From Pseudomonadales bacterium (GTDB lineage Bacteria > Pseudomonadota > Gammaproteobacteria > Pseudomonadales > Pseudohongiellaceae), in the NCBI GenBank assembly GCA_022827425.1, contig JAJDSZ010000123.1:1-36093 (forward strand): a stretch of 36,093 nt of DNA. The letters run 5' to 3'. Under the pieces are notes generated by a model. The model saw only the letters and a list, made by a program, of their open reading frames with translations. It was not told where the DNA came from and did no database searches. Below, in pieces: positions 8,125 to 18,546 of the stretch (its first letter is position 1; every line of letters begins with the position of its first letter). A program made the translations under genes and the position numbers.

Positions 8125-9174
8125 TCAGGTCAGCGCGTCGAGGATCAGATTGGTGGATTCGATGATGCGCTGGTCCCGGGGGCGCAGGTCGGGCTCGAAG
8201 GTCTTGCCGGTCAGATGCTGCAGGCCGAGGATGTAGCGCACGGCGATTTCGTTGGCCTGCTCGTCGCTGAACTGCTGGTCGCGGCTTTTCACCATGCCCC
8301 GGGCGAACTCCTTGGAGAAGGACACGGGCTTGCCGTTTTGCCGCAGCACGTCGCCCCCGTCGTCAAGACGCCAGAAGCGGCTCGAATCCATGGTGTACAA
8401 CTCGTCGGCGGCGACAATCCCGCCGTCGACATTGCGGCCGTGCTCGGTCTTGGTGTCCACCAGCACCATGCCCTTGTTGGCGAGGTAGCCGGAAACCAGG
8501 CCGAACGCCATCAGCGAGGCATTGCGAATCTGGACGTACTCGCCTTCGCCGCAGGCGCCGGCGGCAATCAGAGAGACGGCGTCGGTGGTGGCGTCCACGG
8601 CCGCCTTGGTGCTTGGCGTGTCCATCAAATAGGGCAGGCGGCCATTGGGCTCGAGTTCATCGACCAGCAGATGGTGCCCCGCATAATCGAATTCGGCGGC
8701 GCCTTCCTCCTTCGCCCGCAACCAGTGCCGGTACAGCGAAGTGGAAGTGCTCGACTCCGCCATGTACATGCGCAGCACATTTTCGAGGCCGAACAGTTGC
8801 AGATTTTCCGCGGGAATCACCGTGGAGGCCGGATGCAATCCCTCCACCGCAAACTGGGAACTGCCGAGCAGCGGCGCCACAAGGCCGAGCATGTGGTCGT
8901 GATTGAGCGCGAGCACCTGGTCCTTGAATGGAATCGCGCCGCGATTGACGTCATGGGTGGAAATGCGATTGTTGCGGAACATCAGCCGCAGGGGCCTGCC
9001 ATCGCGGCTGCGCAAGTCCGCGCCATGGACCGAATCGGAAACCTTTCCTTCCTGCACCGTGGCGCCGACAAGCCGCGGCAATTCGCCATCGGCAATGAGT
9101 TGCCGCACCGGCCGGCCGGTGTTCACCCGCGGGCCATATTCCGCCACGAGTTCCCGTATCGATCTTTCATCCAT
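8125..9174 (-). CDS. purC: Phosphoribosylaminoimidazole-succinocarboxamide synthase (SAICAR synthetase)
   Basis: The 349-residue enzyme joins CAIR and aspartate with ATP in de novo purine synthesis. Supporting segments are GKVSDSV near the N-terminus, [20 protein letters not shown] (the substrate loop), [15 protein letters not shown] and [12 protein letters not shown], the last being the PurC signature usually read as D-E-x-x-T-P-D-S-S-R-x-W. It belongs to the long form found in many proteobacteria rather than the 240-residue E. coli form. I chose ATG at 9174 because the earlier start at 9249 would add a Pro-rich, non-conserved 25 residues. It is transcribed away from squalene synthase. It is a housekeeping gene and marks the left edge of the sterol region. 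Confidence 0.93.
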
Positions 9175-9341
9175 AATTTCTTGTTCCAGAACCAGGACAG
9201 GCGCCGGCGGGCCAGCCGGAAAGGGGCAGCGCGCCAGCGGTCGCACCATACCACATCAGCAAGGGGAATGGATGCCGGCAATCGGGACGCAGGGGTTTGC
9301 GGGCAGCTTGCGGCGGGCGAATTGCGATAGAATTCGCCGAT

Positions 9342-9373
9342 ATTGAAAAATTCCAGAAAGGGAATTTTTCAAT
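9342..9373. promoter_or_regulatory. 13-bp perfect palindrome before the squalene synthase gene
   Basis: ATTGAAAAATTCC (9342-9354) is followed by a six-base loop AGAAAG and the exact complement GGAATTTTTCAAT (9361-9373). It stands between the purC start and the likely squalene synthase start. It could be a regulator binding site or a leader hairpin. A related palindrome lies at 28354-28399. The sequence 9175-9341 upstream shows no gene and no convincing promoter. Confidence 0.6.
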
Positions 9374-9405
9374 GCATACCCAGCACAGCCAGACAGGATT
9401 TGGCC

Positions 9406-10446
9406 TTGCGCGATTCGAACGAACACTCGCCGGGCGCGGTGGAAGCGCACCGGCAATATCAGGCAGGGATTCTGCCTGACGTATCGCGCACCTTCGCCCT
9501 GACGATTCCCGCCCTGCCGGACCGCCTCGCCCTGGTGGTGACCAATGCCTATCTGCTTTGCCGCATTGCCGATACCGTCGAGGACGACCCGCAGCTCGAA
9601 GCCGGGCAGAAGGAGTCCGGGCTCGGGCGCTTCCTCGCCGCGGTCAAGGGGGAGGAAGAGGCTGCCGGCTTCTCCGCAGCAATGACGCCCCGGCTTGCCC
9701 GGGAAACTCCCGAGGCGGAACTCGATCTGATGCGCAATGCGGCGCGGGTTGTTGCGGTAACCCATTCCTTCAGCAATGCAGAGCGCCGGATACTTGAGCG
9801 CTGCGTAAGCGTCATGTGCGTCGACATGCCGAAATTCCAGCGCAACAGCAGTCTGGCGGGGCTGCGGGACCTGGCCGAACTCGATGCCTACTGCTATGCC
9901 GTGGCCGGCGTTGCCGGCGAGATGCTGACCGACCTGTTCTGCATTCATTGTCCGGAACTTGCGCCGAAGCGGGAGGAGCTTCGCAAGCTTGCGGTGTCGT
10001 TCGGCCAGGGCCTGCAAATGACCAATATCCTCAAGGATATCTGGGACGATCACCAGCGCGGCGCCTGCTGGCTGCCCCGTTCCGAGTTCGATGATGGTCG
10101 CCTGGAGCTGGCGAAACTGCCGGAAATCCACTTGCGCGAAGAGTTCCGGCAAGGTCTCCACAACCTGATCGCAATCGCCCACGGGCACCTCGTGAACGCC
10201 CTCGAATTCACCTGCCATCTGCCCGCCCGGGAGCGGGGCATGCGCCGCTTTTGCCTTTGGGCCCTGGGTCTTGCGGTACTGACCCTGCAGAAACTCCGGC
10301 GCAATTCCGGCTTTACCGCCTCCGATCAGGTGAAAGTGTCCCGGCGCAGCGTGCGCGCCACGGTATTCGCCACCAATCTGCTGGTGTCAAGCAATCGCGG
10401 CCTGCGCGGCCTGTTCCGCCTTGCCGCCCGGGGTCTGCCCCGCTGA
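9406..10446 (+). CDS. Squalene synthase (trans-isoprenyl diphosphate synthase, head-to-head)
   Basis: The protein condenses two farnesyl diphosphates to squalene. It shows VSRTFALTIPALP, then the first Asp-rich motif in LLCRIADTVEDDP, YCYAVAGVAGEMLTDLFC in the middle, and the second Asp-rich motif in LQMTNILKDIWDDHQRG. These are the trans-IPPS motifs of squalene and phytoene synthases. The sterol operon beside it decides for squalene. The frame is open from a TTG at 9343, but that codon lies inside the palindrome; TTG at 9406 with AGGA seven bases before it is preferred, and GTG at 9439 is possible. No ATG is in frame. Length is about 346 residues, normal for bacterial squalene synthases. Its last 60 bp overlap, tail to tail, the 3' end of the fused epoxidase-cyclase gene, so the two transcripts are antisense there. 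Confidence 0.88.
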   Translation: MRDSNEHSPGAVEAHRQYQAGILPDVSRTFALTIPALPDRLALVVTNAYLLCRIADTVEDDPQLEAGQKESGLGRFLAAVKGEEEAAGFSAAMTPRLARETPEAELDLMRNAARVVAVTHSFSNAERRILERCVSVMCVDMPKFQRNSSLAGLRDLAELDAYCYAVAGVAGEMLTDLFCIHCPELAPKREELRKLAVSFGQGLQMTNILKDIWDDHQRGACWLPRSEFDDGRLELAKLPEIHLREEFRQGLHNLIAIAHGHLVNALEFTCHLPARERGMRRFCLWALGLAVLTLQKLRRNSGFTASDQVKVSRRSVRATVFATNLLVSSNRGLRGLFRLAARGLPR

Positions 10447-13400
10447 GGGTTCCACCCGCAGTTGCCGGGCGCGGCGGCGGCGCTCGAAAAGGCCGAGCGC
10501 GTGAAGCGGGAAATACTGCCGGTACAACTCGTAATCGAGTAGTGCGGTGCGAAAGAAAACCCCCGCCATATCCTGCTTTGGCCAACTGCCGTCGGCTCGC
10601 TGGGCATCGATCAGGAATCGTGCGCCCCGGGAGATTGCGGTCCAGTGTGAATCGCCGGCTTCCAGCAGGGCGAGCAATGCCCAGGCGGTCTGGATGATCT
10701 GGCTTTCCCCGTGTTCGACATAGGCGCCGCCGAGACAGCCACTGGCATGTTCGCCCCAGCCGCCGTCGCTGCGCTGGCGGTCCAGCAGCCAGCGGCAGGC
10801 CAACCTGAGCGCCGGGTCGCCGGGACGGGCGCCGCCCGCCACCAGCCCCTTGACGCCAAACATCGTGCCGTAGATGTACTGCACGCCCCAAACGCCCCGC
10901 CATGAGCCATCCCCGGCCTGATTGCGCCGCAGCCAGTCATCGGCGCGGACCATGGCCTTGTCCACATCGGGTTCCGCGGCAAGAGCGCTATCCCGGCGGC
11001 GGGCCGCAAGCGCGGCCAGGCACGAAGCCGTGCATTCCACATAGGAATGTTCGGTCATGCACTCGCCGAACATCTCCGCCGGCATGAGCCATTCCAGGCC
11101 GATGCGGGAGCGTCTGGACTCGTAGCTGCCGAAGCCGCCGTCCCGGCACTGGCTTCGCAGCAGGAAGCGGATTCCCCGCGCCAGGGCTTCCCGGTCCTCC
11201 GTTTGCCCGCCTGCGGCAAGCATGCCGAGCATGGCCTCGGCGGCGCAGTCGCTTACCGGCCAGCCATGCCAGACGCCGGCAAAGCACCAGCCGCCTTCAG
11301 GGTCGTTGCGAAAGGCTTCGCGAGAGCCCGGGAAGCTGCGGGGGATTTGCTGGCTGCGAAGAAAGTCCGCTCCCCGCTGGAGACTGGCTTCCACTGCATC
11401 GCTTCGGTCCGCGGCAGCCAATGCCTGCAGGGCGAAGCCGGTGTCCCAGGTAGCGCTGCGCGCTCCGGTGATGCGGGTTCCGCCGGTTTCGTCTTCCCAG
11501 ATCCAGTCCTCGAGTTTCGCCACGGCCCGGGCGCAGTCCGCATCATCCGGGTCCTGCAGCCACAGGGCCAGAATGTTGAGCATGCCGCTCACCGGGGAGA
11601 TGCTGGTATGGCTCGAGCTTTGCAACTCCCAGCGGATGCGCTCGATCAACTCACGCCGGCAGCGGGCGCGCAGGCCTTTGCCGTGATGGCATTCATAGGT
11701 TCGGGCCAGCGCGTATCCGACCCGCAGCCAGAGGCTGGGACGGGCGAACAATTCGGCGTCCCGCAGCCGGTTGCGCCCGGTGCTGAAATCCACCGAGCCA
11801 TAGCCTTCCGGATACAATTCTTGCCGCAGGGTTTCAGCGAGGCGATTTTCCGGCAAGGCATCGCGGTGGGCATAAACCGCCGCCATCGCCATGTAGATGA
11901 GGCGGGTATGACAATACCAATTTGCCGGATGCAGGGGCAGCCAGCGCGGCAGGCGCCAGAGTTCCGGCAGCGGCACATGCATCCCCCGCCAGTCATAGAG
12001 ACCGAGCAGCGCCAGCCAGAATTTTCCCCAACTCGGAATACTCAACACGCCTTCCCGGTGGATAAACTCCCGGGCGGGGGCGATGAGCGGGTCGCCGGGT
12101 TCCACATCAAGCACCCGCGCCGCGACATACACCAGGGTCGTGACATACAGGTAAGCCCCGGAATGATCGTGCAGTCCCCATAGCCCATCGCCAAGCCGGG
12201 TTTGCTCGAACTGCCGCAGCAGCAAGCGGCGACGCTCCGGAGCGACCGGCTTGCCCATGATGTGATGCAGCAGCGCATATTGGGCGGCAAGCATGGGGCA
12301 CCACCGCATTTCGCCTTCCCAGGCGCCGTCTTCCCGCTGCAGCGCCAGCAGGCGCTTGCTTGCATTTTCCAGGGCGGCGGCGCCATTGGACGGCGCGGGC
12401 GGCGGGTCCGGGCGCGCGCTGTGGGTGTATCCCCGCATGGAAGTCAGGAAGGCTCCGGACATCTTGTCCAGCACAATCTTTTCATTGGCGCCGGTCAGGC
12501 TGCGCGCCCTGCGCATTTCCCCCACGGCGCCCAGCAGCGCGCGGATTCGCCTGGTAATCGCGCGGAATTCCCGAGAAGCCTGGCGCCAGGCGATCCGGTG
12601 TCCTGGTCGAAACAAGCTGTTCCCAACGCCAGCCAATACGGTTGCGGTGAATGCCAGACTGAGCATGCCCACCGACCGGCTTTCACAGGCAAGCAGCAGC
12701 ATGGTCTGCCGGCGAATGAGTCTGCTGAGACGCCAGTTGCCATAGATGGCCTGCCGCAGGGCCGCAGACTCCGGAGCATGGTCGCTGAAAACCTCATACA
12801 GCCCCATGGCGAGAAGCTGGGGCATCCGGGTGTCCTTCAGCCGCCGATGGGAAAAATCCCTGAAGTTGTTGCTTTCGGCAAGGGCGAGGGCGTCTCCGAA
12901 ACCGAGGGTCATGCCGGCGGCGGTCATGGGGTGGTAATGTCCGGCGGCATCGCCGATGAGCGTCCGCCGACTGTTTCCGTAGGTAAGCCGGGGACGCAAT
13001 TCATTGGCGGCGGCCTGGAAGTTTCCCGCCTGCAATTCGGCAAGGAAGGCCGGGCCAAGGCCGTTCGGAAGCAGGCCGGCATAGGATTCCGCAAGCACAT
13101 GGATCCGATCTTTTGGCGTCCAGTGGTCCAGCGGCATGTCGGCAATGACCCGCACCCGGCCTTCGCCGAGCGGCACGGTGAGCATGGGCCCCGGGGCGCC
13201 GAGCACCACATAGCCATAGCCCTCATGGGCCAGTTCCGCGTTTTCCACCACCACGCCCACCATGCGCGAGCAGGTCATGCGCTCCGTGGGCAGCCCGAGC
13301 GATTGCCGCACGACGGAAGCGCGCCCATCGGCGCCGACGATGCGCCCGGCGCGCAGCAAGCGCTCCTCGCCGCCCTGACTGAAGCGAATGGCGTCGTCCT

Positions 13401-13830
13401 CGATGGCCCGGGCCCGGGCGCGCCGGAAAACATCGATGGCCGGCGCTTCCCCGATCGCTTCATGCAGGGCGGCCACCAGGGCGGCATGTTCGAACACCAG
13501 GCCGCCGGCGCCATCGGCATAGGGCAATACCACAGGCTCTGAGCCGTCTTCGGGAAACACCACGAACCCCTTGCCGGGAGAGAATCCCGGGCGGCCGTCA
13601 AGATCAATGCCCACACTTCGCAACATCCGCACAGCGGGCGGGTGCAGCCATTCTCCCGCCAGCCGGTCCGCGGCCTTGGGATTGGCTTCGAGCAGGGCTA
13701 CCCTGGCGCCTTTGCGGGCATGGGCGAGGGCGCAGAGGCTGCCCACCGGCCCGGCGCCGACAATGGCGATGTCGTAGCTGCCTAGTACTTCAGGCTGGTC
13801 CGGGAGCGGCGTTGATAGCGAATGCGACAT
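10387..13830 (-). CDS. Squalene monooxygenase-oxidosqualene cyclase fusion (predicted lanosterol-type synthase)
   Basis: One unbroken 1147-residue frame. Residues about 17-460 are an FAD monooxygenase of the squalene epoxidase type: GAGPVG at 25-30 with Glu48 for the ADP ribose, GEWLHP at 59-64, GADGR at 166-170, and the FAD/phosphate motif GDAAGHYHPMTAAGMT at 293-308. A Pro-rich linker (about 471-485) leads to a cyclase domain starting ALENASKRLLALQREDGAWE. The catalytic motif is VSDCAAE at 859-865 (Asp861), not the DxDD of squalene-hopene cyclases. FGECMTEHSYVECT at 921-934 supplies Cys933, partner of the catalytic Asp in oxidosqualene cyclases. QW repeats occur to the end (DGSW, DGGWGE, DGSWPK). 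It would epoxidise squalene and cyclise the epoxide. The start lies 49 bp inside the P450 gene. In other bacteria these are separate genes. Confidence 0.92.
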   Translation of the reverse strand: MSHSLSTPLPDQPEVLGSYDIAIVGAGPVGSLCALAHARKGARVALLEANPKAADRLAGEWLHPPAVRMLRSVGIDLDGRPGFSPGKGFVVFPEDGSEPVVLPYADGAGGLVFEHAALVAALHEAIGEAPAIDVFRRARARAIEDDAIRFSQGGEERLLRAGRIVGADGRASVVRQSLGLPTERMTCSRMVGVVVENAELAHEGYGYVVLGAPGPMLTVPLGEGRVRVIADMPLDHWTPKDRIHVLAESYAGLLPNGLGPAFLAELQAGNFQAAANELRPRLTYGNSRRTLIGDAAGHYHPMTAAGMTLGFGDALALAESNNFRDFSHRRLKDTRMPQLLAMGLYEVFSDHAPESAALRQAIYGNWRLSRLIRRQTMLLLACESRSVGMLSLAFTATVLAGVGNSLFRPGHRIAWRQASREFRAITRRIRALLGAVGEMRRARSLTGANEKIVLDKMSGAFLTSMRGYTHSARPDPPPAPSNGAAALENASKRLLALQREDGAWEGEMRWCPMLAAQYALLHHIMGKPVAPERRRLLLRQFEQTRLGDGLWGLHDHSGAYLYVTTLVYVAARVLDVEPGDPLIAPAREFIHREGVLSIPSWGKFWLALLGLYDWRGMHVPLPELWRLPRWLPLHPANWYCHTRLIYMAMAAVYAHRDALPENRLAETLRQELYPEGYGSVDFSTGRNRLRDAELFARPSLWLRVGYALARTYECHHGKGLRARCRRELIERIRWELQSSSHTSISPVSGMLNILALWLQDPDDADCARAVAKLEDWIWEDETGGTRITGARSATWDTGFALQALAAADRSDAVEASLQRGADFLRSQQIPRSFPGSREAFRNDPEGGWCFAGVWHGWPVSDCAAEAMLGMLAAGGQTEDREALARGIRFLLRSQCRDGGFGSYESRRSRIGLEWLMPAEMFGECMTEHSYVECTASCLAALAARRRDSALAAEPDVDKAMVRADDWLRRNQAGDGSWRGVWGVQYIYGTMFGVKGLVAGGARPGDPALRLACRWLLDRQRSDGGWGEHASGCLGGAYVEHGESQIIQTAWALLALLEAGDSHWTAISRGARFLIDAQRADGSWPKQDMAGVFFRTALLDYELYRQYFPLHALGLFERRRRARQLRVEPSAGQTPGGKAEQAAQAAIA

Positions 13831-15173
13831 GGCAGTCTGGGGCCGGTGACCCAGCTTCCGTAATTCGGCGCGGGGAACGGCGTGGCGAGTTGAAAATCGA
13901 AGCGGTCCAGCAAAACGGTCCAGATCGCCTTGATCTGCATGATGGCAAAATTCTTGCCCATGCAGCGGTGCTTGCCGCCGCCAAAGCCGATCAGGGCGTA
14001 GGGATGCTGCTTTTCCTCACTGGAAGGCTGGGCAAAGCGGTCCGGGTTGAAGGATTCCGGCTCGGCGAATACTTCGGGCAAACGATGGGAAACCGCCGGT
14101 GAAATCGCCGCCAGGGTTCCTGCCGGAACGGTGTAACCGCCGTAGCGCAGGGACCTGAGCGCCTTGCGGAAGAGAATAATCAGGGGCGGATGCAGGCGCT
14201 CGCATTCGCGCACGGTGTTTTCCATGGTCTGCTGTTGCTTCAGGCCGGCATGGCTCAGCTTTGCCTCGTCCTGGTACACCGCCCGGATCTCTTCCCGCAG
14301 CCGGTCGGGAAAAGGCGCATGGCGGTGCATTTCGAGTGCGGCCCAGGTGGCGAGCACGGCGCTGGTGTGCTGGCCGGCAAACAGCACCGTGAGCAGGATG
14401 CCGGTGATTTCGTCCTCGCTCAGGCTGCGGCCGTCCTTGTAGTTCGCCTGCATCAGGGTCTGCATGAAATCGGTGGATTCCGCGCCGCCGCGGCGGCGCT
14501 CATTCATGATGCGGATGAAGATTTCGGTGATTCTGCGCCGCGCCCGGTCCCGGCTCCGATGGGCGGGAGTCGGCAGCCGGGGAAAGAAAAAGCCCAGGGT
14601 ATTGATGCCGTTTTGCAGGTCGTGGTAGGCCTCGGCAAAGCCGGAATCGACTTCATTGCGAATTTCCTCGCCGAGAAAGCAGCGGCTGGCGATATGGATG
14701 GTGAGTTCGTTCATCGCCACCGGCAGGTCGATTTCGCCCTGTTCGCCAAGCGAGTCGGCAAAGCGGCCGGTTTCCTCGTGCATGATGTCCACATAGCGCT
14801 TCATGGCGGACTCGCGCAATGCGGGAAACAGAAAGCCGAGCTGTTCGGTCATCATTTCGGAGGAAACGTCGTAGGCTACGCCGCGGCCGAAGATGGGCAC
14901 GGTGAACTGATACACCGATTTGGCGTCCAGGGTTTCTTGCGGAGCCTTGAAGTAGGCGTTGTGGGCGTCAAGGCCGGAAAACAATACGAACTTGCGCGGC
15001 CCGAGACGAAACTCGAACAACTCCCCCTGCTCCCGGCGGCCCCGGCTGAGCATGGCAACGGGGTCGCGCTGGAACTCCCGCAAATGGCCAAGCAGAGGCC
15101 AGCCGCCGGAAACTTCGGGCGGAGGTCGTCCGGTTTCCAGTATGGCTTCGGCGCTTTGTGAACCCGGCGTCAT
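13782..15173 (-). CDS. cyp51: Cytochrome P450, sterol 14-alpha-demethylase (CYP51)
   Basis: The 463-residue P450 has the CYP51 hallmarks: YQFTVPIFGRGVAYD in the B'-C region, the I-helix AGQHTS (residues 266-271, matching AGHHTS of known CYP51s), the K-helix E-C-E-R at 323-326, and the heme loop FGGGKHRCMG with the ligand Cys404. It removes the 14-alpha methyl of lanosterol-type sterols in three oxidations. Unlike the Methylococcus enzyme it has no fused ferredoxin, and no redox partner is in the window. ATG at 15173 has GAGGG five bases before it; a TTG at 15185 that overlaps the reductase stop is the alternative. It lies in the sterol operon directly after the reductase gene and overlaps the fusion gene by 49 bp. 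Confidence 0.93.
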   Translation of the reverse strand: MTPGSQSAEAILETGRPPPEVSGGWPLLGHLREFQRDPVAMLSRGRREQGELFEFRLGPRKFVLFSGLDAHNAYFKAPQETLDAKSVYQFTVPIFGRGVAYDVSSEMMTEQLGFLFPALRESAMKRYVDIMHEETGRFADSLGEQGEIDLPVAMNELTIHIASRCFLGEEIRNEVDSGFAEAYHDLQNGINTLGFFFPRLPTPAHRSRDRARRRITEIFIRIMNERRRGGAESTDFMQTLMQANYKDGRSLSEDEITGILLTVLFAGQHTSAVLATWAALEMHRHAPFPDRLREEIRAVYQDEAKLSHAGLKQQQTMENTVRECERLHPPLIILFRKALRSLRYGGYTVPAGTLAAISPAVSHRLPEVFAEPESFNPDRFAQPSSEEKQHPYALIGFGGGKHRCMGKNFAIMQIKAIWTVLLDRFDFQLATPFPAPNYGSWVTGPRLPCRIRYQRRSRTSLKY

Positions 15174-15181
15174 CGCGGCCC

Positions 15182-16285
15182 TCAATAGACAAAAGGCAGC
15201 ATGGCGAACCGCGCCCGCCGGGTGTAACGCTCCCAGAGTTCGCCGTACTTGGCGCGGCAGCGGCGCTCATCGCGCAGGCAACGGTGGGAAAGTAATGCCG
15301 CCAGCCATGCCGGCAGCAGCAGGGGCGCAAGCGAGGCGAATCCGGCGGTGAGGGTAAAGGCGAGATATACGCAGATTTCGCCGGTGTAGTTCAGATGCCT
15401 GCCAATGCCCCAGAATCCCGAAACCAGCAGGCGCCCGTCGAGCGATTCGGCGGGCTTGCCCCAGATACGGGTGGCCGGGTCCTGCCTGAAGCGGTGCTTT
15501 TGCCCGTTGGCGCCGCGAAACAGCCAGAAGCCGAACAGGAACAGCAGCACAAGTCCGACAGCGGCGGGAGTTGGCAGGGCGGGCCCCGCGGTGTCCACCA
15601 GCCACCAGCCAGTGATGCAGTAGAGGAAGGGCACGAGCACGTAATCACCCCAGACAAGCATCCAGCCGAAACGTTCGGCGACGATGTCCCAAGTGTGAAT
15701 CATGCCGTGCTCGAACTGGAAGTAATTGAAAACATAGAGAAAAGTGAAAAGCTGATAGAGGACCATGGCCAGGCTGAGTTCGCCATGGGTTTCGTATTGC
15801 ACCACGGCGAAAGAGGCATTGAACAGCGCCAGCCCGATCAGCGAGGGGCGATAGCTGAACATTTTCAGATCAATGCCCAGGCACGAGGGGTTCAGTTCCC
15901 TGCCGAAAAAATAGCCGCGCCAGAATCCCGCCGGCGCCCCCGGAGCCTCTGCGCCGCGCCAATACAGCCAGCCGGCAAAGGCAAAGGCGAAAACATTGGC
16001 CATCACGAACAGCGCCGGGAAATGGCTGTGCAGCGCAGCCAGCGAGAACCAGCCGAAGTATCCCCCAAGGCCGGCCAGGGCGAAGCTCAGCAGGAACAGG
16101 TGCAGGCCATTGAGCTTGCAGGGCCGGCTTGCGCCATCGGCGTCGCGCAGCATGACTTCGCGCCCCGGCAATAGCCGGGAACCGGCAAAGAGGAAGGCGA
16201 TGAAGCCAAGCAGCATCAGCGCGGCTTGCAGCAGGGTCGCCGCCGACAACATGCCGGCAGCGAATGGCGAATCAGGCGGCGGCAT
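15182..16285 (-). CDS. Sterol reductase of the ERG4/ERG24 family, probably C-14 reductase
   Basis: The 367-residue polytopic membrane protein shows the sterol reductase signatures: FFGRELNPSCLGIDLKMF at 126-143, HTWDIVAERFGWMLVWGDYV in the middle, GFWGIGRHLNYTGEI at 290-304, and HRCLRDERRCRAKYGELWERY (334-354) near the C-terminus. Members reduce sterol double bonds (C-14, delta-7 or C-24) with NADPH. C-14 reductase is the natural choice beside CYP51, which leaves a delta-14 double bond; this is inference from context. ATG at 16285 overlaps the Rieske gene by 14 bp; a longer frame to 16426 adds 47 non-membrane residues antisense-like in composition. It is followed by the P450 gene at 8 bp or with a 4 bp overlap. 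Confidence 0.87.
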   Translation of the reverse strand: MPPPDSPFAAGMLSAATLLQAALMLLGFIAFLFAGSRLLPGREVMLRDADGASRPCKLNGLHLFLLSFALAGLGGYFGWFSLAALHSHFPALFVMANVFAFAFAGWLYWRGAEAPGAPAGFWRGYFFGRELNPSCLGIDLKMFSYRPSLIGLALFNASFAVVQYETHGELSLAMVLYQLFTFLYVFNYFQFEHGMIHTWDIVAERFGWMLVWGDYVLVPFLYCITGWWLVDTAGPALPTPAAVGLVLLFLFGFWLFRGANGQKHRFRQDPATRIWGKPAESLDGRLLVSGFWGIGRHLNYTGEICVYLAFTLTAGFASLAPLLLPAWLAALLSHRCLRDERRCRAKYGELWERYTRRARFAMLPFVY

Positions 16286-17378
16286 GTCCGGCCCCGGCTT
16301 CCCGCTCGAGATACTCCTGCCACTTGCGCACGGTAACCCGCTGAAAGGCGGCCACCACCGGATTGACTTCAATCGCCGGCTCGTCCCAATGTTGTTCGTA
16401 ACCGGATTGCTCGGCTTCCACGGCAACCCGGTCCTGGTCGAGCAGGGGGCCGATCAGCAGCCGGTTGGAAATCTTCATCAGGGACTTCATGGCAAAGCGC
16501 GGAATGCGCACCGGCAGCAGGGGAATTTTCAGCGACTTGAAGTAGAACAGGAAAAATGTCCGGGTGGTGCGTTCATCGATGGGCAGGACGAACAGCCAGT
16601 GCTTGATTTCATCGTCGGTGTTGGACCACTGGTAGGGATACTGGTAGCAAAGCTTCATGCGGTTGGTATTGAGCCGGTCGTGATCGACGAACAGGCCGGA
16701 AATGCGCCCGCGGCCGACCCGGGAGTCATACTCCAGATGCACGTCGTCCCCCACGGTTTCACAGGCGGTGAGTTCGGCCCCGTCGAAGGGGCGGTACTTG
16801 CGGTGCAGGTGGGCGTGGGAAAAGTCGCTCACATTGTCGATGATCACCGAATGATGGGCCGAACAGGTGAATCCCAGGGGCACGCAGGCCCAGCGGTCCT
16901 TGCCTTCGATTTCGGGAATTTCGGGAATGTCGCGCTGCCCCGCGAGTTGCGGATCGCCGGGAAAAAGCCAGACCAGCCCGTAACGCACCCTGACCGGATA
17001 ACCGCGGATGGAGATGTCGGGCAGTTCCCTGCGACCGAATAGGTCGGGGATTTCCACCACCCGGCCCTGCCGGTCGTACTTCCAGCCGTGGTAGGCGCAT
17101 ACCAGCCGGCAGTTATCCACCTGCCCGAGCGACAGCTTGAGCTGGCGATGGGCGCAGCGGTTCTCCAGCGCGTGAAATTCTCCGGCGGCACTGCGAAAAA
17201 GAGCGATGGAGCGTTTCCAGAAAACCACCTCCACCACGGTTCCGGGTTTGACATTGCGAACTTCTTCCACCGCGTACCAGTAATCCGGGCACATGCCCGC
17301 CGCCCGGGACTTCTGCCGCAGGCTGCGGGCCTCCGCAAAGCCTGGCGGCGCTGTTGTTGCCGTTGCCGCTGGATTCAT
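16272..17378 (-). CDS. Rieske non-heme iron oxygenase, SdmA-like sterol C-4 demethylase
   Basis: The 368-residue protein has an N-terminal Rieske domain with the [2Fe-2S] ligands Cys75-x-His77 and Cys94-x2-His97 in RCAHRQLK and CAYHGWKYD. The catalytic domain carries DNVSDFSHAHLHRKY, giving Asp185, His188 and His192 (or His190) as likely mononuclear iron ligands. Rieske oxygenases of this type include KshA, pheophorbide oxygenase and SdmA, the bacterial enzyme that oxidises the sterol C-4 methyl group. Its place between an SDR and sterol genes argues for SdmA function. It is probably membrane-associated through Leu/Pro-rich segments around residue 290-310. ATGA overlap with the upstream gene indicates translational coupling. 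No dedicated reductase for the Rieske centre is nearby. Confidence 0.85.
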   Translation of the reverse strand: MNPAATATTAPPGFAEARSLRQKSRAAGMCPDYWYAVEEVRNVKPGTVVEVVFWKRSIALFRSAAGEFHALENRCAHRQLKLSLGQVDNCRLVCAYHGWKYDRQGRVVEIPDLFGRRELPDISIRGYPVRVRYGLVWLFPGDPQLAGQRDIPEIPEIEGKDRWACVPLGFTCSAHHSVIIDNVSDFSHAHLHRKYRPFDGAELTACETVGDDVHLEYDSRVGRGRISGLFVDHDRLNTNRMKLCYQYPYQWSNTDDEIKHWLFVLPIDERTTRTFFLFYFKSLKIPLLPVRIPRFAMKSLMKISNRLLIGPLLDQDRVAVEAEQSGYEQHWDEPAIEVNPVVAAFQRVTVRKWQEYLEREAGAGHAAA

Positions 17379-18523
17379 TCCTGTCCCTCGCTGGCTGTTG
17401 TCGGCGAACTCTCATCGCTTGAATCTTCCACTGACTGATACGCTGCATTGTCCCGTGGCGGTTTTGCCGCGGGATTGTCAATCGCCTTGCGCTCATGGTA
17501 GTGGAATGCGTAGGCTTCATGGACTGCGTCGCGGATGCTGCCCGGCTGGTAGCCCAGTTCGTTCTTGGCCTTGGCCAGGTTGGCGTGGCGGCATTTCTTC
17601 AGCAGGCGGATCGCGCCCGGGGTGAAGCGCTGGGGAAAGTCCGGATGGAAGCGGCTCAGATAGAAGCTGGCGATTTCCGAAAACACATACATGAGATTGG
17701 CGGGAATCCGCCGGTTCGGGCGCGGAATGCCGGTAACTTCCTCGTAGAGGTCGAGAATATCGGAGATCGTCAGGTACTGGCTGCTGAAAATGTACTTCTC
17801 CCCGCTGCGGCCTTTTTCCATGCACAGCAGGTGGCCCTGCACAATATCCCTTGCCGCGACGAATTCAAAACCGCCATCGACATAGGCCCGCAGCTTGCCA
17901 TTGGTGTAATCGCACAGCGTCCTGCCAAGCCGCGACGGGAAGAAATCCGCGCCGCCGACCACCGCGCAACAGGTGGCCACTATCACATCCTGGCCCATGG
18001 CCGCCGCCCGCAGGCATTCATGCTCCACCAGCGTCTTGCTGCGCTCGTAGGGCATGGTGCGCTCCATGGGATAGAACTGCATGGTTTCGTCGCTGGGCGC
18101 GGACGGGTCGTCCAGATCGTAACCCACGGCGCTGAACGAACCGGTAACCACCACCCGGCCGGCTTCCGCTTCCCGGGCGGCCTGGAGCACATTGCGGGTG
18201 CCGAGCACATTGCATTCGTAGATTTCCCGGCGGTGGGCGAGGTCGCCGTCGATGGTGGAAATCCTGGCGGCGACGTGATACACGCCCCGGCAGCCTTCCA
18301 CGGCGCGGCGGGTGGCGCCGAGGTCGCGAATATCGGCCCAGGCGCGCTCCACCGCAAGGCCATCCAGCGCGGCGTTATTGTCTTCTTCGCGCAGCAGCAC
18401 GCGCACCCTGACCCCATCAGCAAGCAAGCGGCGCACGAGATTCGCCCCCACATGGCCGGCGGAGCCGGTAAGAAGCACCGGCGCCGTTCGGGAATCGGAG
18501 GCTTGGGATGACTGGGTGTTCAC
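17375..18523 (-). CDS. NAD(P)-dependent 3-beta-hydroxysteroid dehydrogenase/decarboxylase-like reductase (SdmB-like)
   Basis: This extended SDR has an N-terminal Rossmann motif, LLTGSAGHVGANLVRRLL, an Asp-containing cofactor loop (WADIRD), the conserved CNVLGTRNVLQAA strand-helix, VVTGSFSAVGY and the catalytic pair Tyr-x3-Lys in YERSK. It resembles NSDHL/3-beta-HSD and the SdmB protein that works with SdmA in C-4 demethylation, oxidising the 3-hydroxyl and releasing the C-4 carboxyl. The frame opens with TTG at 18538, but GTG at 18523 has AGGA about seven bases upstream and is preferred, giving 382 residues. It is the first gene of the five-gene sterol operon; its stop overlaps the next ATG. 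The acidic, Ser-rich C-terminus after residue 365 is not conserved-looking. Confidence 0.87.
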   Translation of the reverse strand: MNTQSSQASDSRTAPVLLTGSAGHVGANLVRRLLADGVRVRVLLREEDNNAALDGLAVERAWADIRDLGATRRAVEGCRGVYHVAARISTIDGDLAHRREIYECNVLGTRNVLQAAREAEAGRVVVTGSFSAVGYDLDDPSAPSDETMQFYPMERTMPYERSKTLVEHECLRAAAMGQDVIVATCCAVVGGADFFPSRLGRTLCDYTNGKLRAYVDGGFEFVAARDIVQGHLLCMEKGRSGEKYIFSSQYLTISDILDLYEEVTGIPRPNRRIPANLMYVFSEIASFYLSRFHPDFPQRFTPGAIRLLKKCRHANLAKAKNELGYQPGSIRDAVHEAYAFHYHERKAIDNPAAKPPRDNAAYQSVEDSSDESSPTTASEGQE

Positions 18524-18546
18524 CTTGTTTCCTGGCAATTGTTGGT

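Follow-up and report, generated by a model that had tools for sequence, protein, structure and literature searches.

The window analysed here, 36,093 nucleotides in full, is contig JAJDSZ010000123.1 of a Pseudomonadales bacterium (assembly GCA_022827425.1, hereafter the source genome). We studied a gene whose product, P0001, joins a squalene monooxygenase (squalene epoxidase, SE) to an oxidosqualene cyclase (OSC) in one polypeptide. Frame 1 of the plus strand is interrupted by many stops across 10387-13830, and the open frame is that of the minus strand. The gene and its parts are as follows (FAD, flavin adenine dinucleotide).

10387..13830, minus strand: SE-OSC fusion gene (P0001), 3444 bp, 1147 aa, from ATG to stop.
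12619..13776, minus strand: SE domain, residues 19-404, from Pfam and structure matches.
13741..13758, minus strand: FAD dinucleotide-binding motif GAGPVG, residues 25-30, from the alignment.
12892..12954, minus strand: second FAD motif GDAAGHYHPMTAAGMTLGFGD, residues 293-313, from the alignment.
12370..12618, minus strand: C-terminal SE helices and tether, residues 405-487, from conservation and the predicted model.
10486..12369, minus strand: OSC domain, residues 488-1115, from Pfam, TIGR01787 and structure matches.
11236..11256, minus strand: VSDCAAE, residues 859-865; D861 is the catalytic acid (human D455), C862 is human C456 and V859 is human V453.
11032..11040, minus strand: VEC, residues 931-933; C933 is human C533.

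All four Pfam models scored above their cut-offs: FAD_binding_3 at residues 19-318 (79.6 bits, cut-off 22), SE (PF08491) at residues 165-404 (65.5 bits, cut-off 20.1), SQHop_cyclase_N at residues 488-781 (156.9 bits, cut-off 26.2) and SQHop_cyclase_C at residues 792-1115 (200.6 bits, cut-off 26.1). The protein also passed the cut-off of TIGR01787 (squalene/oxidosqualene cyclases) with 498.1 bits against 322.7. The closest solved structures were human SQLE for the SE half (6c6n, E 1.4e-22) and human lanosterol synthase for the OSC half (1w6k, E 7.4e-131). We then searched with a predicted model of the whole fusion (pLDDT 75.5, pTM 0.73); Foldseek matched its cyclase half to 1w6j (E 6.8e-35, TMt 0.78) and its SE half to 6c6n (E 1.0e-20, TMt 0.81). 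The original prediction, that a single 3444-bp frame holds both enzymes, was thus borne out, and its residue numbers were exact (GAGPVG from 25, VSDCAAE at 859-865, VEC at 931-933 and a Pro-rich stretch at 471-485). Its reading of the gene as a true fusion of the two enzymes also held, as both sets of catalytic motifs were present and the gene lies in a sterol gene cluster. Automatic names obscure the fusion; the three source names were 'FAD-dependent oxidoreductase', 'FAD-dependent monooxygenase' and 'squalene--hopene cyclase'.

A homologue search of 5.8 billion proteins, in which 7996 candidates were scored, gave 1089 matches at E<=0.001. The best 120 of the 1089 were 1116-1186 aa long and 61-97% identical to P0001, and the motifs of both the FAD half and the cyclase half were found in all 121 aligned sequences (these 120 and P0001). 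We also scanned one genome per species with patterns derived from P0001, a procedure that favours close relatives, and obtained 79 named loci. Both halves lay within one stop-to-stop frame in 71 of them; the same architecture occurs in independent assemblies, and an assembly error is excluded as far as sequence allows. Several of the 71 were truncated by contig ends, two that are counted among them (L045 and L051) had an in-frame stop within the cyclase half, and three (L007, L028 and L054) were on records titled chromosomes, of 1.6-3.5 Mb. At L064 (6929-10400), SE (490 aa) and cyclase (665 aa) formed two frames with the break inside the tether; the cyclase was separate at L068, L069 and L079 (Myxococcota); the cyclase frame at L075 (9992-12277) started only at query residue 367, without an SE catalytic part; and L077, L080 and L082 contained only C-terminal parts of the cyclase, at or near contig ends. 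In the window, GC content was even over the fusion gene (0.64-0.67), without a break.

The fusion is common to many distantly related bacteria, sponge symbionts included. Eight phyla were represented among the named fused rows of the residue comparison described below (phylum named for 61 of 68). Of 37 genomes from this genus, the source included, five had a strong cyclase match, all in frames of 1209-1346 aa; a second fusion copy in one genome of this genus (L092, genome G022) has an in-frame TAG and is cut short. No strong cyclase match was found in 21 other genomes of the order, four of which had weak matches (E 3.4e-5 or worse). At the level of the class, 6 of 369 genomes had an OSC-type match above 600 bits, in fused-size frames in the source genome (G000), G085 and G236 and not in G193, G230 and G305. 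Nitrospirota had a cyclase match in 7 of 245 genomes, all in frames of 1143-1223 aa (judged by frame length only). With regard to SE matches at E<=1e-12 in 12 genomes, eight had them only in a fused-size frame, those of L064 (G429) and L079 (G432) were in 490-aa frames, that of L069 (G430) was in a myxococcal SE-squalene synthase frame, and the genome of L075 (G431) had none at this threshold. The nearest named relative, L005, was 97% identical and has a jk18 bin name, a style used in a paper on Ircinia (PMC9531527). Such names were attached to 27 of the 79 loci, and two titles contained Spongia or sponge; 14 further loci were p16x bins, which are named similarly with a prefix absent from PMC9531527.

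To compare catalytic residues, we used 68 fused rows, which were the 65 of the 71 fused loci that were complete enough together with P0001, L100 and L101. Alignment by eye placed H641, W795, F850, D861, C862, C933, W981 and F1092 at human H232, W387, F444, D455, C456, C533, W581 and F696, residues with known roles in human lanosterol synthase. All eight were conserved in 67-68 of the 68 rows. Among the 121 aligned sequences, D861 and C862 were invariant, as were G25, G27, P28 and G30 of the first FAD motif and G293, D294, H300 and P301 of the second. The VSDC acid motif and the equivalents of C456, C533 and H232 were all present, indicating a cyclase of OSC type rather than a squalene-hopene cyclase (SHC); the SHC of the same genome has D, D, A and W at the positions of V453, C456, C533 and H232. 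V859, at the human V453 position, was Val in 121 of 121 sequences. Ile at this position is taken as the mark of cycloartenol synthase in PMC4919349.

At the junction, residues 401-480 formed the longest weakly conserved internal stretch (mean identity 0.54-0.65 per 20-residue block), the other low single blocks being 141-160 (0.59) and 941-960 (0.61). Measured between the homologues of residues 395 and 500, the run was 104-110 residues long in all 121 sequences and exactly 108 in 105 of them. The model placed helices at 412-441 and 450-460, and its pLDDT fell below 50 at 468-477. Conservation and model together suggest that the tether has a set length and does not form a conserved docking surface, which would be more in keeping with two enzymes tethered on the same membrane than with a closed tunnel.

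Several genes next to the fusion gene also belong to sterol synthesis.

13782..15185, minus strand: CYP51 sterol 14-alpha-demethylase; p450 match, and the best three solved chains are Cytochrome P450 51 (E ~1e-110).
15182..16426, minus strand: sterol C14 reductase (ERG24 family); PF01222, and 4quv, Delta(14)-sterol reductase (E 6.5e-65).
16272..17378, minus strand: SdmA-like Rieske C4 demethylase; NF052579 at 401.5 bits, under the cut-off of 600, with Rieske and VanA_C domains.
17375..18538, minus strand: SdmB-like NAD(P)-dependent sterol demethylase protein; NF052578 at 313.9 bits, under the cut-off of 600.
9343..10446, plus strand: squalene synthase, convergent with the fusion gene; PF00494 at 167.8 bits, and 7wgh, squalene synthase (E 5.5e-15).

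The fusion frame shares its first 49 bp with the CYP51 frame and, at the 3' end, its last 60 bp with the squalene synthase frame, the sole PF00494 match in the genome. The true start of the C14 reductase is probably further inside the listed frame. From this arrangement, the fusion gene is predicted to be the last gene of an SdmB-SdmA-ERG24-CYP51-fusion operon. We examined the same neighbours in the 51 of the 71 fused loci that have at least 7 kb upstream; 43 of the 51 had all four, the P450 being present in 45 and each other gene in 44. The other SE matches in the source genome, which is 94.5% complete, were two and weak (E 2.2e-4, just above the cut-off, and 8.5e-4), so the fusion gene is its only evident squalene epoxidase. 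A sterol methyltransferase gene is on another contig. The genome also encodes a 754-aa SHC (genome G000, contig C25, 5806-7710), and hopanoid and sterol entry enzymes are therefore found in one genome.

The original prediction knew of no described enzyme with this architecture, and here it failed. The fusion was named in 2020 as MsbE (PMC7074536) and again in 2023 (PMC10070321), and we rejected the idea of an undescribed architecture. MsbE is encoded in the msb cluster of a gammaproteobacterial symbiont of the sponge Melophlus, where one gene holds squalene epoxidase and sterol cyclase (PMC7074536). Like P0001, it has the epoxidase N-terminal and the cyclase C-terminal in one frame, with the lanosterol-type Val. 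Its neighbours also correspond: msbA (NAD(P)-dependent oxidoreductase), msbB (Rieske oxygenase), msbC (sterol reductase) and msbD (lanosterol demethylase) match the SdmB, SdmA, C14 reductase and CYP51 homologues described above. The two systems differ in that msb includes the sterol methyltransferase msbF, whose counterpart here is on another contig, and in that squalene synthase adjoins the fusion here and is on another scaffold in the Melophlus symbiont. P0001 is thus a new member of the MsbE-type SE-OSC fusions, likened to MsbE by its architecture, by the lanosterol-type Val of the cyclase and the flavin-binding residues of the epoxidase, and by its gene neighbours. The "fused SMO/OSC homologs" in the Methods of PMC10070321 have the same architecture; there they were trimmed to the cyclase for a tree, and that section gives no assay. 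In Ircinia symbionts, clusters of steroid genes occur in 115 of 537 metagenome-assembled genomes (PMC9531527). These clusters share the ERG24-CYP51-LSS order, with FDFT1 or SMT at the 3' end, encoded on the other strand, but the gene is named LSS/ERG7, and the words "fused" and "fusion" do not occur in the main text. The unfused locus L099 resembles the fusion in its product-determining cyclase residues, its set being identical to A790/H855/V859, and in the adjacency of its SE and OSC genes. It differs in having two genes, OSC then SE, which are 46% (OSC) and 32% (SE) identical to the fusion. The genome of L099 was also the only one of the 369 in the class to pass the cut-off of TIGR03463 (osq_cycl, 2,3-oxidosqualene cyclase), and the L099 score of 1133.9 bits suggests a Methylococcus-like cyclase.

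Taken together, we consider it highly probable that P0001, encoded by the last gene of the predicted SdmB-SdmA-ERG24-CYP51 operon, is a widely shared SE-OSC fusion with a predicted squalene-epoxidising activity, followed by a cyclisation that likely yields lanosterol. The squalene synthase of the convergent gene would supply the squalene. From it, with O2 and a reductase, the FAD domain would form 2,3-oxidosqualene, and D861 of the cyclase domain would protonate the epoxide to start the formation of lanosterol. CYP51, the C14 reductase and SdmA/SdmB would then take off methyl groups, and alkylation of the side chain may fall to the methyltransferase encoded on another contig. Of the committed steps of sterol synthesis, the fusion would likely catalyse the first two. 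Its halves are probably two membrane-surface enzymes on a flexible tether of roughly constant length. This arrangement would probably mean that both activities are expressed 1:1 and that the epoxide has only a short way to travel across the same membrane patch, rather than passing through a sealed tunnel. Since the architecture is already known, the remaining interest lies in the predicted two-step enzyme, its spread over phyla and a myxococcal counterpart. Here the two reactions by which squalene is committed to sterols are naturally joined, which makes the family a test case for rate gain or channelling and a candidate one-gene module for lanosterol production in bacteria. Sterol synthesis by sponge symbionts also bears on a possible bacterial source of the fossil sterane biomarkers attributed to sponges (PMC10070321).

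Several observations weigh against this reading. The fusion scored 705.4 bits with TIGR03463, under the cut-off of 851, and we filed its cyclase under TIGR01787 and its catalytic residues for this reason. The tether is weakly conserved and of low model confidence, leaving channelling without direct support. Some or all of the four neighbours were missing from the upstream stretch examined at 8 of the 51 loci, the rest of those genomes being outside this count: L022, L025, L036, L047 and L048 had none of the four, and L044, L045 and L076 had some. The fusion is not strictly required, as L064 is split, the cyclase frame of L102 is separate and L075 is without the SE part. No biochemical assay of a fused enzyme was found in the literature searched, which was mostly open-access papers without bioRxiv preprints. 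Finally, human T381 is replaced by Ala and C449 by His (one Asn) in the fused rows, which leaves room for products other than lanosterol.

This last point leads to the alternative that survives best, namely that the enzyme is bifunctional and its main cyclic product is parkeol, a mixture or another triterpenol. Plant cycloartenol synthase has His at the human C449 position, and mutants of the plant enzyme that combine this His with Val at the human V453 position give mixtures including parkeol. A family with Ala at T381 and His at C449 could accordingly form parkeol or mixed products. The same Ala/His pair was present in the unfused L099 and L102 and in three myxococcal cyclases (the unfused L103 has Tyr/Asn). 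Methylococcus makes lanosterol, and L099, taken for Methylococcus-like, shares all three residues with the fusion. The lanosterol-type V859 is constant in 121 of 121 sequences, and CYP51 and C14 reductase genes adjoin the fusion gene. The authors of the Melophlus study likewise take Val as the lanosterol type (PMC7074536). We therefore regard a product other than lanosterol as unlikely. Still less credible is a protein in which one half alone is catalytically active and the other is a scaffold or decaying. Relatives with a half lost or separated (L075 without the SE catalytic part, L064 split) and the second, partial fusion copy with an in-frame TAG in G022 are in its favour, but the FAD motifs and D861/C862 are invariant in 121 sequences, and the two other SE matches of the genome are weak. 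An assembly join of two neighbouring genes was rejected as having practically no chance of being true: joinable neighbours do exist, since SE and cyclase genes are separate and adjacent at L099 (cyclase first), but independent assemblies have one frame at 71 of the 79 named loci, over eight named phyla among the 68 rows and with three loci on chromosome records, and the seven Nitrospirota genomes with a cyclase match all have frames of fused length.

To examine the origin of the SE-OSC fusion, we compared trees of the two halves. In a quick search with midpoint rooting, the fused cyclases except L101 formed one group with the split L064 (SH-aLRT 92), and the free cyclase tree (also a quick search) placed L101 and L102 beside Myxococcota. 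An independent second fusion in the gammaproteobacterial family of L101 (f51) was considered and set aside, because one clade of all fused rows with L064 and L102 was not rejected (p-AU 0.758, with a higher likelihood) and the SE tree joined the fused rows, L064, L101 and L131 (99/90, with very long outgroup branches). One origin of the fusion is thus allowed by these trees and not proved. SE and OSC distances among the 68 fused rows were correlated (r 0.889; 0 of 2000 permutations as high), indicating that the halves travel together. The simplest reading is one fusion event, after which the joined halves moved together from phylum to phylum; evidence of horizontal transfer was reported for cluster genes in Ircinia symbionts (PMC9531527). 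The splits look secondary, and L064, L102 and L075 could each reflect sequence error, an assembly gap or decay. L064, whose cyclase is nested among fused ones, could be a secondary split or a sequence error, and the SE frame of the genome of L102 extends to the end of the examined stretch.

Myxococcota have a different SE fusion. The frames with the SE match at L068 (5261-8629; 1123 aa) and L069 (1142-4786; 1215 aa) have squalene synthase (PF00494) at their C-terminal end. We found 247 relatives at E<=0.001, of which the best 120 (P0122-P0241) are 811-1317 aa long and include Cystobacter fuscus and Sandaracinus amylolyticus. SE matches were present in 26 of 235 Myxococcota genomes, and in 9 of these the frame measured 999-1215 aa (frame length only). 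The SE half is homologous to that of P0001 (37-44% in the rows measured) and is likewise fused to a pathway neighbour, and the full-length profiles of the two fusions were collinear over 775 columns (75 of the 120 rows used). The myxococcal protein differs in its partner, squalene synthase, in a middle domain that resembles the C-terminal half of the cyclase alone, and in the separate OSC gene of L068 and L069. A middle stretch of more than 200 residues was present in 96 of the best 120 relatives. The profile of these 96 aligned with the cyclase C-terminal half (hhalign probability 99.7%, E 2.9e-25). With a broader OSC set it reached E 1.6e-26, a better match than the 1.2e-16 obtained with SHC. 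In hmmsearch, the best single-domain score was 149.6 bits for the OSC C-half against at most 62.3 for SHC, but full-sequence scores overlapped (as much as 141.2 bits for SHC and as little as 28.9 for one OSC, L103), and a tree grouping the middle domain with SHC was not rejected (p-AU 0.871). Descent of the middle domain from OSC is accordingly no more than a candidate reading. Profile comparison found no remnant of the cyclase N-half (probability 2.8%). None of the 96 middle stretches had a VSDC-type motif; VSDA occurred in 5 and a DxDD string, wherever placed, in 7.

No mention of this SE-squalene synthase fusion was found in two papers on myxococcal sterols, and the protein, often with a cyclase-C-half-like middle, may be new. 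We propose, as a tentative idea that is more probably wrong than right, that sterol entry was once catalysed by one SE-OSC-squalene synthase polypeptide. Sponge symbionts and a related gammaproteobacterial family would have retained SE-OSC, and Myxococcota would have retained SE and squalene synthase around a decayed cyclase that lost its N-half and acid motif, with OSC separate. If so, both lineages would have been under the same selection to keep squalene and the epoxide on one protein. No intact SE-OSC-squalene synthase protein was found among the best 120 of the 247 relatives, the longest of which (1317 aa) has no cyclase domain listed.

Two other frames of the window lie beyond the 3' end of the fusion gene. 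A 320-aa frame at 9256-10218 on the minus strand, antisense to squalene synthase and without family matches, is probably not a gene. At 8125-9249, also on the minus strand, a 374-aa SAICAR-synthetase-like protein scored over the Pfam cut-off and far under the NCBIfam equivalog cut-offs, and is possibly a divergent paralogue.

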